From positions 576,522-640,521 of the forward strand of contig NZ_JABEKX010000001.1 of assembly GCF_013407595.1 (NCBI RefSeq): a DNA stretch of 64,000 bases, written 5' to 3'. The notes under the pieces were generated by a model. The model did no database searches. It was not told the DNA's origin and saw only the letters and a program-made list of their open reading frames with translations. The stretch is from Lacticaseibacillus absianus. GTDB lineage: Bacteria > Bacillota > Bacilli > Lactobacillales > Lactobacillaceae. Of the stretch, positions 16,739 to 55,792 are shown one piece after another; position 1 is the stretch's first letter; every line of letters begins with the position of its first letter. Both the position numbers and the translations under genes were made by a program.

Positions 16739-16788
16739 TCACCCGGCGCTGGTCCGCGTCAAGTAGACAGGTCAAATAATTAAAGTGC

Positions 16789-17667
16789 CTATGCAGTTTT
16801 CCTTACGGCATGATTCCGATATTCCATCGGGGTCATGCCGTTTAGTGTTTCTTGGCGGCGTTCGTAGTTATACCAGTTGATTGCCGCTTCGATACTCTTC
16901 ATCATCTCAAGCTCGGACAAGCAGTGCTCAAAGGCGAACCACTCAACCTTAAGATGGCTCCACAGGCTCTCCATTGGGCTATTATCGCCAGGAGTGCCCG
17001 GCCGCGACATGCTGTGGATAATTCCTTCACCTGCTAAGCACGTGTTGTAGGTGCGCCCGGTGTACGCGGATCCTTGGTCACTATGCGTAATTTCTGGCCT
17101 GATGCCATTGTTGCTCTTGATGGCCAGCTTAATCGTCTTGGTGGTAAGCGCCGCGGTTTCGCTCGGTGCCACACACCAGGCGATCACGCTGTGATCATAG
17201 AGATCCTTCACGGCACTAAGCCGCAGTTTCTGTCTACCATCTTGACCGTAAGTGAGCTCGGAACAGTCGGTCACCCAGACTTTGTTGGCCGCGCTAGGGT
17301 GGAAGGCATGCCCCGCATCGACGGTGTACAGCTTGTTGGCTAGGAGGAACTCCTTCCTCTCGGCTCTGCGATCGTGCTTCGCTACACGGATAGAGGCTCG
17401 AATCCGTCCCTGACGCATGAGCCTGCGGACACGACCGTGACTCACGTGATAGGGTGTTTCCTTATTGATATACGTCACGAGCCGTTTGACCCCGAAGACA
17501 TAGTGATGCTTTTCCTCAAGGGTCACGATGTAGGCCAGAATAGCCTGGTTCTCCCGTTCATGGGCCGTCACCTTACGATGCGTCCACTTGTAGTACGCTG
17601 CACGCGAGATACCCAGAAACCGGCATGTCTCACTGATGCCATAAAGCTGACCGGAGTCGGGATTCAC
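16789..17667 (-). CDS. IS3 family transposase OrfB (DDE integrase domain)
   Basis: A 292-residue frame with an N-terminal HTH_21 region (YGISETCRFLGISRAAYYKW) and an rve integrase core: first Asp in WVTDCSELTYG, second in THSDQGSAYTG, Glu in NSPMESLWSHLK. A GTG at 17667 is possible as a start, but in this group OrfB is normally made as an OrfAB fusion by -1 frameshifting; the -1 frame is open upstream through TPRTGKRECRSDRQYQ to the A7 slippery run. No ribosome site supports independent initiation. Confidence 0.9.
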   Translation of the reverse strand: MNPDSGQLYGISETCRFLGISRAAYYKWTHRKVTAHERENQAILAYIVTLEEKHHYVFGVKRLVTYINKETPYHVSHGRVRRLMRQGRIRASIRVAKHDRRAERKEFLLANKLYTVDAGHAFHPSAANKVWVTDCSELTYGQDGRQKLRLSAVKDLYDHSVIAWCVAPSETAALTTKTIKLAIKSNNGIRPEITHSDQGSAYTGRTYNTCLAGEGIIHSMSRPGTPGDNSPMESLWSHLKVEWFAFEHCLSELEMMKSIEAAINWYNYERRQETLNGMTPMEYRNHAVRKTA

Positions 17668-18392
17668 TTCTTGCGCGAGTTGCTGAATGGCCTGATATTG
17701 CCTGTCTGATCGACATTCCCTCTTTCCAGTTCTTGGAGTTTTTTTAACACTGCGACCTCCGTTGACACACGGGTTAATCGTGCCTGTAGTCGCTTGTTCT
17801 CGAGCTTCAAACGCTCTACTTCAGTGAGCTGACTATTATCTTCCTTCGCCTTACCGCGGCGGTCTGCGAGGGCGGACTCACCACCTTGCTTGAACTTTTT
17901 GACCCATGCATAAACCTGTCCATACGAAACGTTGAACCGCTGGGTTGCGGCGACGTAGTCGTGTTCGTTGGCGATGGTCCATTGTGCGATCTCGATACGT
18001 TCGAGCTGCGTAGTCTTGCGTCCATCCTTCATTGGCTTGGCCCTCCCAGTGGCTTGTAGTGATTTACCACTAGTATACAGGGATACCCATTGACTGATGA
18101 CGGTTTTACCCGGAATGCCGTAGGCAACAGCCAGCTGCCGAAAAGATGTGTTACCGGCTAGGTACTTCTGCACGACTTCTAGCTTGAACTCCCGAGAATA
18201 CTGTTGGTTAGTATGCCTGGACTTAAGACCATCCATCCCATCAGCTGCGTAACGTTCTAACCACTGGTTGACCTGGTGGTGATCGATACCGTGTATCCTT
18301 TCCACTGCCTGTGAACTCCAGCCGCCCTCATTAACCAAACCAATGTAGAACAGTTTCTCTTCGGGCGTGTATCTTGAACCTATCCGGCCCAT
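17664..18392 (-). CDS. IS3 family OrfA (helix-turn-helix protein)
   Basis: A 242-aa protein with at least two tandem HTH units (about 10-60 and 60-110, then 125-165) and a C-terminal leucine-zipper-like coiled coil (VERLKLENKRLQARL), as in IS150-type OrfA. It binds the inverted repeats. It ends 4 nt inside OrfB. The product after the A7 run (LQELERGNVDQTG...) is the unshifted tail. Confidence 0.88.
   Translation of the reverse strand: MGRIGSRYTPEEKLFYIGLVNEGGWSSQAVERIHGIDHHQVNQWLERYAADGMDGLKSRHTNQQYSREFKLEVVQKYLAGNTSFRQLAVAYGIPGKTVISQWVSLYTSGKSLQATGRAKPMKDGRKTTQLERIEIAQWTIANEHDYVAATQRFNVSYGQVYAWVKKFKQGGESALADRRGKAKEDNSQLTEVERLKLENKRLQARLTRVSTEVAVLKKLQELERGNVDQTGNIRPFSNSRKK
17739..17745 (-). 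other. Programmed -1 frameshift site of the IS
   Basis: On the coding strand TTA AAA AAA CTC gives a run of seven A. Slippage by -1 joins OrfA to the open frame leading into OrfB, giving the OrfAB transposase. Confidence 0.75.
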
Positions 18393-18543
18393 AAAAAAAC
18401 TCCTTCCTAAGAAGGCAAGCTTTAATTATTTGCTTGTCTACCTAGGTAGGAGTATAGCCCACCCCTCAGTTCAGGGAGTTCACGGGGCCGTGCTTTATGG
18501 GCTGGGCCAAAACTGGTTGATGGCTCAGCCGCTGATTTGGGGG

Positions 18544-51176: not shown

Positions 51177-51380
51177 AGCGTGCGTTGCTCGCCGTGAGTG
51201 ACGAGCAGACCGGCGTTAGAATGCCTCGCTGCGGCGTTCGGTAGCGCCGGACGGCAGCAAGGGCTTCACTGCGGCGTCCGGCACAGCGGGACGGCAGCAA
51301 GGGCTTCACTGCGGCGTCCGGCAAAGCGGGACGGAAGCAAGGGTTTCACTGCGGCGTCCGGCAAAGCCGGAAGGAAGCAC
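51177..51380 (-). repeat. Composite intergenic repeat, copy C, with four 40-bp units
   Basis: Four 40-bp units (51221-51260, 51261-51300, 51301-51340, 51341-51380), two differing at only two positions. On the minus strand each carries GCTTCCGTCC and GCCGGACGCCGCAGTGAA, the same unit as in copy B, followed by TCTAACGCCGGTCTG and GTCACTCACGGCG and then the terminator at 51115-51176. No gene lies in 51068-51463. Confidence 0.85.
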
Positions 51381-51463
51381 CGGCGCCGCTTGATGGTTCG
51401 GCCTGGTTTGAGATCGGTGGGTGGCTGCCGCGAGCCGCTAATGATGGCTTGGTGCCTGTGTCT

Positions 51464-51835
51464 TCAGCTGTATTTGCGCCGGGTCCAGAAGTGCCGCTTC
51501 GGTCGCGGATCGGGGGCGGCCGCCATGTAACGGCCGTCCGGATCCGTCATCATCCAGCGCTGCCCTTGTGCGAGCGGGTGATACCGCCAGAGTCGGGCGC
51601 CGGCCGGCCCCAGGGTCACCCCATCGAACGCGATGATCCGGGTGATCGCGGTGAAGCAGTCGCCGAGCGTGGTTTGGAACATGAAGCCCGAGTAGCGATC
51701 GGCGCTCAGCGTCACCGCGGTGGCGTGGACCTGTGCCAGCAGCCGGGCGGCTTGCGGGTCCTCACCGAGCTCGGCGGCCAGGGTTTCGTCGAAAGTCTGG
51801 AGCCAGTCAACGGCGCGTTGTTCATCTTGACGCAT
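51464..51835 (-). CDS. Uncharacterised protein
   Basis: A 123-aa soluble protein not recognised (VDWLQTFDETLAAELGEDPQAARLL, SGFMFQTTLGDCFTAITRIIAFDG, RLWRYHPLAQGQRWMMTDPDGRY). It ends in a basic RPKRHFWTRRKYS. A good ribosome site (GGAGGAGAATC) supports it as real. Confidence 0.6.
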   Translation of the reverse strand: MRQDEQRAVDWLQTFDETLAAELGEDPQAARLLAQVHATAVTLSADRYSGFMFQTTLGDCFTAITRIIAFDGVTLGPAGARLWRYHPLAQGQRWMMTDPDGRYMAAAPDPRPKRHFWTRRKYS

Positions 51836-52875: not shown

Positions 52876-52975
52876 CCGAGAGGGACACGCTCGTGGGGAA
52901 TGCAAGGCGCCCGAGCGCGGCGCTGGAAGGACCAGCTTTTGGCGCGCGTGCCCCGAGTAACGGACCGAATGTGAG

Positions 52976-53007
52976 ACCAGTTCAGCACAAGCTGGGCTGG
53001 TTTTTTT
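52976..53007 (+). terminator. Terminator before padR
   Basis: ACCAG/CTGGT and inner CAGC/GCTG stems with TTTTTTT. Ends the CDF transcript. Confidence 0.75.
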
Positions 53008-53008
53008 A

Positions 53009-53060
53009 TACTTTGCTTTACAAGGCACAGTGGTCGTCATATACTTTGTCTTGCAAAGTA
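53009..53060 (+). promoter_or_regulatory. padR promoter with two operator copies
   Basis: TTTACA (53017-53022) and TATACT (53040-53045) are 17 bp apart. TACTTTG-TCTTG-CAAAGTA (53042-53060) is a perfect inverted repeat over the -10 end, and a second, weaker copy TACTTTG-CTTTA-CAAGG (53009-53025) covers the -35. This is the usual PadR-family autoregulation layout. Confidence 0.75.
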
Positions 53061-53077
53061 GCGAAGAGGAGGACACC

Positions 53078-53410
53078 ATGACCAAGATTTCGTCGCAGTT
53101 GCTCAAAGGGGTGCTCGAACACGCTATTTTGATGATGATCGCGCAAGGGGAGACCTATGGCTACGCGCTGATGCAGCAGCTGGCCACAGACGGGTTCGGG
53201 CCGATTCCGGAAGGGACCGTGTATCCGCTGTTGCTCAAACTGCAGCGCAACGGGCTGATCACCGCCGCGCGCCACGCTTCAACGACGGGGCCGGATCGCA
53301 AGTACTACCAGATCACCGCGGCGGGGCGTGCGCAAGTGGCGACGTTTTTACCGGAGTGGCAACAGTTGGTGGGCGCAATGACCGCCTTGATTCAAAAAGA
53401 GCAGGAGTAG
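53078..53410 (+). CDS. PadR family transcriptional regulator
   Basis: A 110-aa PadR regulator, subfamily with a short C-terminal dimerisation helix. The wHTH contains LEHAILMMIAQGETYGYALMQQL, GTVYPLLLKLQRNGLI and DRKYYQITAAGRAQV. ATG 53078 has GGAGG upstream. It is 4 bp before a membrane gene, forming the PadR plus membrane-partner pair common in Bacillota. Confidence 0.93.
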   Translation: MTKISSQLLKGVLEHAILMMIAQGETYGYALMQQLATDGFGPIPEGTVYPLLLKLQRNGLITAARHASTTGPDRKYYQITAAGRAQVATFLPEWQQLVGAMTALIQKEQE

Positions 53411-53414
53411 TGAG

Positions 53415-54221
53415 ATGAACAAACAGTTGGATCTAGTCAAGTCGAACGATCGGCGGGTCGAGGCACTCCATGGGCTCGATCGCATGTACGCACAGACGCT
53501 GGTCACCTATATTCGCGCGCACTGGCATAAGGATCGTGAGGCGATCGAAGACGCCATCCAAGACATCCTCATCGACTTGGTGACGGCGCAAGCGGAAGGC
53601 ATTGCAGCGAAGGCCTACTTTGGCACTGATCCGCAAACGGCGGCGGATGAGATCGTGCGAGAGTTGCCTGCGGCCGCCCCGGCGCAGTGGTTGATGCGGC
53701 TGTGGCCGGGGGTCAATGGCATGGGCTTATTATCGCTCGGTGGGGTGGTCTTGACCCTCGGGCTGGGTGAGGCGTTCGATCTGATGGATGCGGCGAGCTG
53801 GTTTATTTTTTTGGTCCTGTTCATGCTGGTCGCGCCACTGTTTCGGGGCCTGGACTTTAACCGCCTGAAGCGCCGAACGGTGTGGCGCTTCGCCCTTGGG
53901 CTCGTGGTCGTGATCGCGGTGTATGTCGGCGTGTTCTGGTTGCCGGATATTCCGATAACGGCCCCCGTGGCGCAGCGGATCGCAGGCGGCCTGGTCGGCG
54001 TGTTTGTGGTGGCCAATGGGGGCCTAGCCGTTAAGTTTAGACGTCTGGCGGTGCCGTGGGTGCTGGCCTGGGCGGTCGGTGGGGCGCTGGCGATGCTCGC
54101 GCTCGGGCTGGGCCTGACCCTGTGGGCTAGCTTCGGGGTCGCGCTCGCATTGTTCGGCTGTGGCCTTGGGGTGGAGCTGTACCAGGTGAGCCATCTGCAT
54201 GTGGTCGCGCAGATGGGCTAA
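53415..54221 (+). CDS. PadR-linked membrane protein (HAAS/DUF1129-like)
   Basis: A 268-aa protein: N-terminal helical cytoplasmic region (1-80; DREAIEDAIQDILIDLVTAQAEG), reminiscent of HAAS signalling domains found next to PadR, then six to seven hydrophobic segments. DUF1129 is the closest family I can suggest; the match is uncertain. It may signal to PadR or be its target. Confidence 0.65.
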   Translation: MNKQLDLVKSNDRRVEALHGLDRMYAQTLVTYIRAHWHKDREAIEDAIQDILIDLVTAQAEGIAAKAYFGTDPQTAADEIVRELPAAAPAQWLMRLWPGVNGMGLLSLGGVVLTLGLGEAFDLMDAASWFIFLVLFMLVAPLFRGLDFNRLKRRTVWRFALGLVVVIAVYVGVFWLPDIPITAPVAQRIAGGLVGVFVVANGGLAVKFRRLAVPWVLAWAVGGALAMLALGLGLTLWASFGVALALFGCGLGVELYQVSHLHVVAQMG

Positions 54222-54294
54222 GCTGGCGCGCGGTGCCTGTGAGGCCCCTCGTGTGCCGGCGACACCCCGTATGATTACGCGCGAGTGTAACCGC

Positions 54295-54323
54295 TTGCCA
54301 AAAAATCAACGGCGTGCTACAGT
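54295..54323 (+). promoter_or_regulatory. Promoter of candidate long non-coding RNA
   Basis: TTGCCA (54295-54300) and TACAGT (54318-54323) are 17 bp apart. No coding gene with a ribosome site follows; a structured region and a terminator do. Confidence 0.55.
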
Positions 54324-54328
54324 AACGT

Positions 54329-54843
54329 CGAGCTCGAGTCTAAGGTGATGTCGGACAGCTGCCGGCACCGGTGACCTTCAGGCTTGGTGAAATCATCCAA
54401 GGCTTTCGCCTAGTAACCCCCACAGAGCATATGCAGTGAAGCGTCGCGTACTGACGGACGCAAAGGCCAGTGGTATGTGGATGAATCGATCGTGCGAACC
54501 GTCGGGTTGCCCCTGCTCCGGCAGGCATCTAATCAAGTCCGGCCGGTGTGCTGACGCACCGGCCACGCAAGGCCCACGCGGCGTCAAGCCGCTGCGGCCC
54601 TGCGGCTCCGCCTGGCAACGGCGGGTCACGTCAGCCAAAGGCGCGCTGGGGGCTTCCCTGGGGCGGCTTTGGTGTGTCTGGGCACGCCAAAAACGACAGG
54701 TCGGGCCACTGACTCGCCAAAGGGACGGCGTCGCGACAGCTTGTGGCGGGGCGTGAAGTGTGTTAAGCTACTAAACTTGTGTGCACGGCAGCGGGAAATG
54801 ACGCGAAAAATGCATTTTCGCCGAACGTTCCCTGTTTTTTTGC
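54329..54843 (+). ncRNA. Candidate structured non-coding RNA, about 515 nt
   Basis: A promoter precedes and a strong terminator ends this region. Many stems can be drawn: 54344-54369 (GGTG..GTCGG/CCGGCACC), CTTGG/CCAAG (54383-54401), CCTGC/GCAGG (54512-54525), GGCCGGTG/CACCGGCC (54541-54564), GCGGC/GCCGC (54578-54592), CCGCC/GGCGG (54608-54624) and GGTGTG/CACGCC (54671-54688). It does not match RNase P, tmRNA, SRP, 6S or T-box motifs that I know. The open frame 54436-54756 has no ribosome site and odd codon use. Identity unknown; comparison with GOLLD/ROOL-like long RNAs would be a natural first test. Confidence 0.45.
54789..54840 (+). terminator. Terminator of the candidate RNA
   Basis: An outer GGGAA/TTCCC stem encloses GCGAAAA-ATGCA-TTTTCGC (54803-54821) and is followed by a T-run (54835-54841). 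Confidence 0.75.
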
Positions 54844-54875
54844 CTTTTTATCTAGGAATTTCAGGAACAATCCCA

Positions 54876-54943: not shown

Positions 54944-55792
54944 ATGAAAGTACGGCGAAGTGACCGCTTGATCGATATGACGCGGTACCTGTTGGAACGG
55001 CCCCACACGCTGGTGCCACTGACGTTTTTCTCGAAGCGCTACGAATCCGCCAAGTCCTCGATCTCGGAGGACCTCGCGATCGTGCGCCGCACGTTCGCGC
55101 AGCGGCAGACGGGGATCCTTGAGACGGTGCCCGGGGCCGCTGGTGGGGTGCGCTACATCCCGATCATCGGGGAACAGGAGGCGACGGGCTTCATCACCGA
55201 GATGGCGCACCGCCTGTCGGAGACCGATCGCCTGCTGCCAGGGGGGTATGTCTACCTGTCCGACTTGCTCGGCACCCCTGAGGTCTTGCGGCAGATCGGC
55301 CGGTTGATCGCCACCCAGTACCTCGACGCCCATGTGGACGCTGTGATGACTGTGGCGACCAAGGGGATCCCGATCGCCCAGAGCGTCAGCCAGTACCTGA
55401 ACGTGCCGTTCGTGATCGTGCGGCGCGATTCCAAGATCACGGAAGGCTCCACCGTCAGCGTCAACTACGTCTCGGCGAGCTCCGCTCGGATCGAGAAGAT
55501 GGAGCTGTCCAAGCGCAGCCTGCCGGCCGGTTCACGGGTGCTGATCGTGGATGACTTCATGAAGGGCGGCGGCACCGTCAACGGGATGCGCAGCCTGATC
55601 ACCGAGTTCGACGCGAGCCTGGTCGGCATCTCGGTGTTTGCGGAAGGCAACTTCTCCGGCGACCGCATGGTGACGGACTACACGAGCCTGATCCGCGTCG
55701 ACGAGGTCGACACGAAGGCCAACACCCTGCACGCCGTGGCGGGCAATTACTTGGCCAAAAACGTGCAGCGCTTCAAGGAGCTGGGTGAATGA
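54944..55792 (+). CDS. purR: Purine operon regulator PurR
   Basis: A 282-aa protein: N-terminal winged helix (1-75; SDRLIDMTRYLLERPHTLVPL, ESAKSSISEDL) and a phosphoribosyltransferase-like domain with the PRPP loop VLIVDDFMKGGGT (about residues 201-213). It senses PRPP and controls purine genes. It overlaps the next gene by 4 nt (ATGA). Confidence 0.95.
   Translation: MKVRRSDRLIDMTRYLLERPHTLVPLTFFSKRYESAKSSISEDLAIVRRTFAQRQTGILETVPGAAGGVRYIPIIGEQEATGFITEMAHRLSETDRLLPGGYVYLSDLLGTPEVLRQIGRLIATQYLDAHVDAVMTVATKGIPIAQSVSQYLNVPFVIVRRDSKITEGSTVSVNYVSASSARIEKMELSKRSLPAGSRVLIVDDFMKGGGTVNGMRSLITEFDASLVGISVFAEGNFSGDRMVTDYTSLIRVDEVDTKANTLHAVAGNYLAKNVQRFKELGE

Follow-up and report, generated by a model that had tools for sequence, protein, structure and literature searches.

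In the window (the whole 64-kb stretch of Lacticaseibacillus absianus DNA that was analysed), a gap of 722 bp separates the stop of an open reading frame (53,415–54,221, plus strand; preceded by padR and with weak DUF1129 similarity below the Pfam cut-off) from purR (54,944–55,792, plus strand), in agreement with the roughly 720 bp given by an earlier, sequence-only reading. Both genes are neighbours and lie outside the element described here. A pattern scan locates in the gap the promoter which that reading had proposed: a −35 TTGCCA, a 17-nt spacer and an extended −10 (TGC-TACAGT, with TG ahead of the −10) at 54,295–54,323, one site against a mean of 0.2 in shuffled sequences. A CGAGT box (54,282–54,286) precedes it at the left edge of a repeat; 8 nt separate the box from the −35, and its GAG begins 12 nt before the −35. 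Downstream, with all features on the plus strand, come the predicted RNA body (54,330–54,706, its start placed from the −10), which contains a descriptor match to a GGU-GAA-...-[AGGC UUUC GCCU]-AGUA-ACC motif (54,386–54,418) and a strong 3′ hairpin, CCAAAGGCG...GGCTTTGGTGTG (54,635–54,676); a small, fast-changing hairpin at the right edge as placed by alignment (54,698–54,725; by eye, GGTCGGG-loop-CGACCC in copy L003); and a terminator-like hairpin with a run of seven T (54,787–54,842).

The repeat, which we call T1, is about 425 bp long (54,280–54,706) and reaches from before the promoter to beyond the 3′ hairpin; DNA search and alignment give four copies in the same genome, with 97–99% identity and unrelated flanks. 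In a four-way alignment, the similarity between copies runs from 54,279–54,280, which is 15 nt ahead of the −35, to 54,701–54,720, with little likeness beyond (identity is 0.69 over the 40 nt that start 20 nt past the hairpin and 0.45 over the following 40 nt). The promoter is kept in all four, the exceptions being one −35 base in L002 and one spacer base in L004, and an RNA of about 380 nt with a predicted start near 54,330 would be common to all copies. Judged by the look of the sequences, the neighbours are presumably purR, an XRE-type regulator, an AraC-type regulator, and nrdI with an aminopeptidase; with the remaining copies beside other genes, the linkage of the RNA to padR and purR looks incidental. 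By eye, the T1 edges show neither long terminal inverted repeats nor a target duplication, and possible CGAGT...GACTCG ends of 5–6 nt in the window copy are absent from the other three.

As a single sequence, the window copy gives a mixed picture. The 513-nt strand folds at −226.2 kcal/mol against a shuffled mean of −212.45 kcal/mol (z −2.40) and beats 100 of 100 shuffles, a predicted folding excess of moderate size and not overwhelming. The exact fold of T1, whose copies are too alike to show covariation, could still be chance; its minimum-energy form pairs the region of the GAA/AGUA motif otherwise than the motif does. A simple terminator scan found nothing on the plus strand of the gap, whereas folding of 54,780–54,845 gives a two-tier hairpin beside the seven T (−19.3 kcal/mol). 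Because T1 similarity stops at 54,701–54,720, while the similarity of the region upstream of purR to a relative that has no RNA there (G001) starts at 54,803, this hairpin lies outside the repeat, in the purR upstream region. The strong terminator of the sequence-only reading thus exists as a fold, missed by the simple scan, without being part of T1, and the transcript of about 515 nt could apply just to the window copy. Neither T1 nor the second family described below (T2) has a clear intrinsic terminator within the repeat. Pfam gave no match for three of the gap's open frames.

The comparison with Rfam proposed alongside that reading was run with cmscan, and no family reached the cut-off: the whole window has no match at the gathering score, and the gap gave only three unrelated sub-threshold matches (E 0.5–9.2). 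Ten T1 and T2 loci (four T1 and six of nine T2), together with 11 loci of the families found in two other genomes, G010 and G006, likewise returned unrelated sub-threshold matches alone (E 0.05–4.3). These matches, the best at E 0.05, belong to unrelated families and are taken as chance, except a 6S-like one that lies beside a G010 copy and not in it. ARAGORN found no tRNA or tmRNA gene in the window, and the element has no Rfam or ARAGORN match to RNase P, tmRNA, SRP or 6S RNA, whose motifs the sequence-only reading had not seen either. 6S RNA and multi-copy sRNA siblings have their own transcription, act in trans and sometimes occur in several copies; T1 resembles them in its own promoter, its several copies and a proposed action in trans but is longer or more numerous, and 6S RNA does not match it at E ≤ 10. 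Covariance models of ROOL, GOLLD and OLE are present in Rfam 15, and membership of ROOL or GOLLD, which had been suggested, is not supported: neither matched at E ≤ 10, the copies are dispersed on the chromosome, and the window lacks a tRNA gene. Both are ornate, structured bacterial RNAs of considerable length whose function is unknown; some occur in Lactobacillales, and they are encoded in phages and prophages, often near tRNA islands (PMC12286853). T1 is also long, bacterial and, by prediction, structured, but differs in the dispersed chromosomal copies, the missing Rfam match and the absence of a tRNA gene from the window. The 520-nt lncRNA of Lactobacillus salivarius is described as confined to one species, missing from some strains, without a definite function found and megaplasmid-encoded, and the abstract mentions no multi-copy chromosomal family (PMC5643018); it is cited under ROOL in PMC12286853. 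Set side by side by description alone, T1 is also long, probably non-coding and of narrow range, but multi-copy and chromosomal rather than megaplasmid-borne. Small mobile repeats and MITEs are under 200 bp with mostly terminal inverted repeats and target duplications, and are dispersed, non-coding and foldable when transcribed, some with putative promoters (PMC2229807). T1 is also dispersed, foldable and promoter-bearing but has about 425 bp and, by eye, neither inverted repeats nor target duplications. Stem-loop sequence families of bacterial genomes are reportedly the subject of one publication. We found nothing in the literature plainly describing such an RNA family; subscription papers lay largely outside the search, and we do not claim absence from print. 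Phage and plasmid records held no match for T1, T2 or L183 (one G010 subfamily), plasmid records none for L118, and two exact patterns were absent from viral contigs. An exact-pattern scan of genome contigs for the 3′ hairpin, which may leave out the T1 genome itself, gave four matches in unrelated organisms that are taken as chance.

The T1 3′ hairpin led to a second family in the same genome. It matches T2 at nine places (75–85% identity, E 2.5e-8 to 1.3e-5), and as a descriptor it has a single match in the 64-kb window, T1 itself. T2 comprises nine copies of about 450 bp, in subgroups 81–85% alike, and shares with T1 the promoter layout, the internal motif and the 3′ hairpin: GAGT (in eight of nine copies) stands 8–9 nt before TTG(C/T)C, followed after about 17 nt by TAGACT, then an interior GAA(A/G)TCATCCA and the hairpin GCCAAAGGCG...CTTTGGTG. 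Of the 123 pairs in the T2 fold, 10 have both partners changed, where shuffles give 7.1 and 8 of 500 reach that number, while further pair types are not above shuffles (500 of 500 as high); we regard the covariation as weak, being mostly one split between the two subgroups and hence few events. All nine copies run straight from the hairpin into a variable array of palindromic modules of about 100–130 bp, often in tandem. The modules are a separate repeat spread through the genus, probably genus-wide: they follow the 3′ hairpin at L005–L008, L013, L014 and L020–L022, occur also at L045–L047, L049 and L050, and have dozens of matches in G001 and G010 and some in G012, G013 and G017. By eye, their stems look swapped by compensating blocks. 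Where the flanks of L119 and L168 match G000 loci, the likeness is this separate tail repeat and not a shared site.

At the nrdI site, where the T1 copy L004 lies, G010 carries an unrelated-looking element with 22 matches in that genome and none in the other 29. Its sense strand reads GAGCTTAAAAA-TTGACG-17-TACACT, a folded body and the hairpin GGCC(A/G)AGGCC...GGCTTCGGCGCG; among the copies, the −35 is of TTGAC type and the −10 of TACACT or TAAGCT type; by eye, most copies end in their own, mostly copy-specific, intrinsic terminator, and many G010 and G006 promoters have GAG 11–12 nt before the −35. In an alignment of 20 G010 copies, 97.4% of the cells in 57 predicted pairs are paired (38–49% in slid controls), and 20 of the 57 pairs have changed on both sides against a shuffled mean of 12.3, with 0 of 500 shuffles as high; the number of further pair types was reached by 23 of 500, and the structure was derived from the tested alignment itself, which favours that structure. 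Covariation in the G010 family is strong. Three covariance models were built, R1 on T2, R2 on the G010 family and R3 on G010 and G006 together. R2, with seven candidates scored per genome, matched G010 and G006 alone among 397 family genomes (G006 at E 6e-8 to 7e-7). With R3, G010 has at least 52 matches, none weaker than E 3.9e-10, and G006 at least 15, 13 of them at E ≤ 0.012, counts that are a lower bound with 94 of 1125 candidates scored. Sequence was retrieved for 49 of the 52 G010 places, of which 39 were inspected, and for 13 in G006, one of which (L194) lacks the 5′ part. Weak R3 matches in G004 C2 and G016 look by eye to lack a promoter and the features of the element and were rejected, and further weak ones (E 0.5–9.6) fall in G000, G004 C9, G005, G006 (two), G015, G020 and G029. 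The R1 scan gave nine weak matches (E 0.48–6.7) in G010, G028, G006, G015, G013 and G027; the two best, both in G010, lie within coding sequence by eye and were set aside. Directly upstream of one G010 copy, L136:1177–1363 resembles 6S RNA (27 bits, E 0.055, below the gathering score), the gene ahead of it being presumably rarA-like.

Sequence searches do not join the two pairs of families. R2 and R3 have no T1 or T2 match (for R3, with E ≤ 10 as the limit, over the window and the 13 T1/T2 loci), nhmmer shows no link between the families, and R1 places T1 at the corresponding position with 10–11 bits and E 1.6–2.4, values that are not significant, although these were the sole sub-threshold matches in 130 kb. 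The architecture does suggest a link. The GAA...AGUA motif is a 3-bp stem around GAA...hairpin...AGUA, which we take from its sequence to be bulged-G or loop-E like. Its strict form is present in T1, in eight of nine T2 copies (one lacks it) and in 27 of 49 G010 and G006 elements (missing in 22); the 49 comprise 37 from G010 and 12 from G006, and L121, L176, L194, the false L198 and L199 and ten loci (L200–L209) lie outside this set. In 1000 shuffles each it occurred once for T1 and 0 and 3 times for two T2 copies, and in the 64-kb window, both strands, it has two matches, one of them T1. The motif follows the −10 by 62 nt in T1, 67 in T2 and 67–71 in G010 and G006. The 3′ hairpin of T1, common to T2, resembles CCAAGGCC...GGCTTCGGCGCG of G010 and G006, and a descriptor that joins a GAG-box promoter with GCCRARG...GGCTTYGG at 230–420 nt recovers three of four T1, five of nine T2, 28 of 49 G010 (9/20 and 19/29) and one of 13 G006 elements, has one match in the window (T1) and none in 102,215 bases of control purR loci. 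Both descriptors were written after the families had been inspected. We conclude with fair confidence that T1 and T2 belong to one superfamily with the G010 and G006 elements by architecture, not by sequence or covariance profile; on that footing, the superfamily is at present known from three genomes of a single genus, probably Lacticaseibacillus.

Each family is narrowly distributed. T1 is absent from the other genomes in a set of 60 relatives that included its own, and in 30 genomes of the genus its one match elsewhere is 45 nt in G013 (E 9e-4); the T2 core is found in none of the other 29. When a T2 copy with its tail was compared with 251 family genomes (at most two candidates scored per genome), three further genomes of the genus gave matches, all to the tail alone. 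Of the other genomes, 28 have a purR match at E ≤ 1e-60; the 27 purR loci that were compared show no alignment to 54,281–54,706, so the element is missing there from the gaps upstream of purR that were to be collected from relatives. The closest relative by PurR, G001 (98%), lacks both T1 and T2, and the RNA is therefore dispensable at the genus level. There, purR directly follows a cation transporter, and T1 is missing in one block with padR and the gene after it (window 52,879–54,803); at one T2 site, the element is missing along with a neighbouring gene. In a 400-kb sample, G001 has no dispersed repeat of such size; the repeats seen there are tail arrays and some others that are tandem or present twice.

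The copies do not diverge evenly along their length. In T2 subgroup A (five copies), identity is 0.99 in the body, 0.58 over 13 nt of the −35/−10 spacer and 0.47 in the upstream flank; the trend is present, and weaker, in subgroup B and two G010 subfamilies. The T1 spacer is 0.97 identical, which implies that the T1 copies are recent or fully homogenised, and T1 alone could be a recent burst. At one site occupied in both genomes, L145 (G006) and L174 (G010) have both flanks and orientation in common, yet their elements are 0.56 identical, against 0.87–0.96 between L145 and three G006 paralogues of its subfamily and 0.93–0.97 between L174 and two G010 paralogues. Since L174 is about as distant from L118, of another G010 subfamily (0.58), the shared site could also reflect replacement by another subfamily or a separate insertion. 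At a second site (L194/L208), identity over aligned columns is 0.71 across species and, within them, 0.93 (L194) and 0.74–0.81 (L208), which weakly supports concerted evolution, L194 lacking its 5′ part. The shared-site identities have the pattern of concerted evolution, as judged from one good shared site and the T2 spacers. G006/G010 pairs with flanks matching on one side were left uncounted, and a one-sided match between L118 and L004 was dismissed as a single coincidence.

Several other similarities were noted and are not counted as shared sites. Stretches of 121–125 nt near family copies are identical between G000 and G010 (L002:345–469, L121:1–125, L133:3027–3147), perhaps a recently moved insertion element. 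A padR-like stretch just downstream of a G006 copy (L196:1–245) is 74.8% identical to L001:219–467; padR adjoins the window copy too, in a different order. Elsewhere in the window, 16,745–18,459 is an IS3-type transposase region 74–78% identical to lactobacillus plasmids, mostly of Lacticaseibacillus, and 51,198–51,530 is an apparently intergenic open frame of internal repeats, perhaps another repeat array.

We lean towards reading these elements, on the evidence of the sequences, as an independently transcribed family of long structured non-coding RNA genes, with four T1 and nine T2 copies in the genome. The sequence-only reading of an unassigned long structured RNA gains from the promoter, the repeat unit, the missing Rfam match and the covariation (strong in G010, weak in T2), with the transcript itself a prediction. 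T1 would be transcribed from its own promoter, starting near 54,330, and the copies at many loci would make nearly one RNA, whose dose would be set by copy number. Such an RNA would act in trans, with self-assembly or binding to a protein or RNA of the cell as the likeliest mode, and gene conversion between copies would hold the body constant as promoter spacers and flanks diverge. In an extension of this reading that we consider unlikely, the elements may form a dispersed, concertedly evolving RNA multigene family, with at least 52 loci in one genome and near-identical RNAs of about 400 nt in each subfamily. Gene conversion would then homogenise subfamilies as in rRNA, and turnover between species would be too fast for sequence searches. 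If this is true, an RNA of that dosage would more likely be abundant and structural or self-assembling than a specific regulator.

The best rival, which we consider unlikely but serious, is a selfish, non-autonomous, MITE-like mobile repeat that carries its own promoter, lands mostly just downstream of genes and makes a folded RNA for its own spread or incidentally. Such a repeat would account for copies that are dispersed, sharp-edged and unrelated in their flanks, for families confined to single genomes, for a T1 that is uniform through the promoter spacer and for the position of G010 and T2 copies mostly after co-directional open frames. G001, without the element at purR and at one T2 site, would suit it as well, but what is missing there is padR, the next gene and T1, or T2 and a neighbouring gene, rather than the element alone. 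Further, the T1 edges seen by eye are without long terminal inverted repeats or target duplication, the T2 spacers have drifted around a uniform body, unlike a recent burst, sites are occupied in both G006 and G010, and the G010 family has compensatory pairs.

Orientation bears on another reading, in which the element is a cis-acting 3′ part of the upstream gene (terminator, insulator or stabilising 3′ end). The upstream open frame is co-directional at 18 of 19 G010, seven of nine T2, two of four T1 and two of four G006 loci, whereas the downstream frame in G010 is split 9 to 9 (one locus has none), which implies no downstream cis target; the counts cover 19 of the first 20 G010 and four of 13 G006 loci and use mechanical open frames, some surely spurious. 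In G010 and T2, the upstream frame is also usually close, and by eye a terminator ends most G010 copies. We nevertheless think this role improbable: most copies carry their own promoter, several G010 loci have, by eye, a terminator-like stretch ahead of the element, and two of the four T1 copies follow an opposite-strand frame. A purR leader or attenuator would fit the position upstream of purR and the hairpin at 54,787–54,842, but we reject it as very improbable, given the three other T1 copies beside other genes and the 27 purR loci of relatives without alignment to 54,281–54,706. It is equally hard to credit a small protein-coding repeat: the gap has open frames, but the three compared with Pfam have no match, and the T2 subgroups differ by single-base indels that put the frames out of register. 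That the fold is a chance product of GC-rich DNA, as the modest z-score of the window copy (−2.40) might suggest, is barely conceivable for a repeated unit with a conserved promoter whose wider family shows covariation.

Bacteria have few long structured RNAs, and for most of these no function is known. With 13 to more than 50 copies per genome, their own promoters and a fold kept despite sequence turnover, the RNA genes that we propose would offer an accessible test case for the role of such RNAs, in hosts that are lactobacilli, probably of food type. Each such family resembles a repeat private to one species and can thereby escape the databases. The family would also be a test case for gene conversion among dispersed RNA genes.
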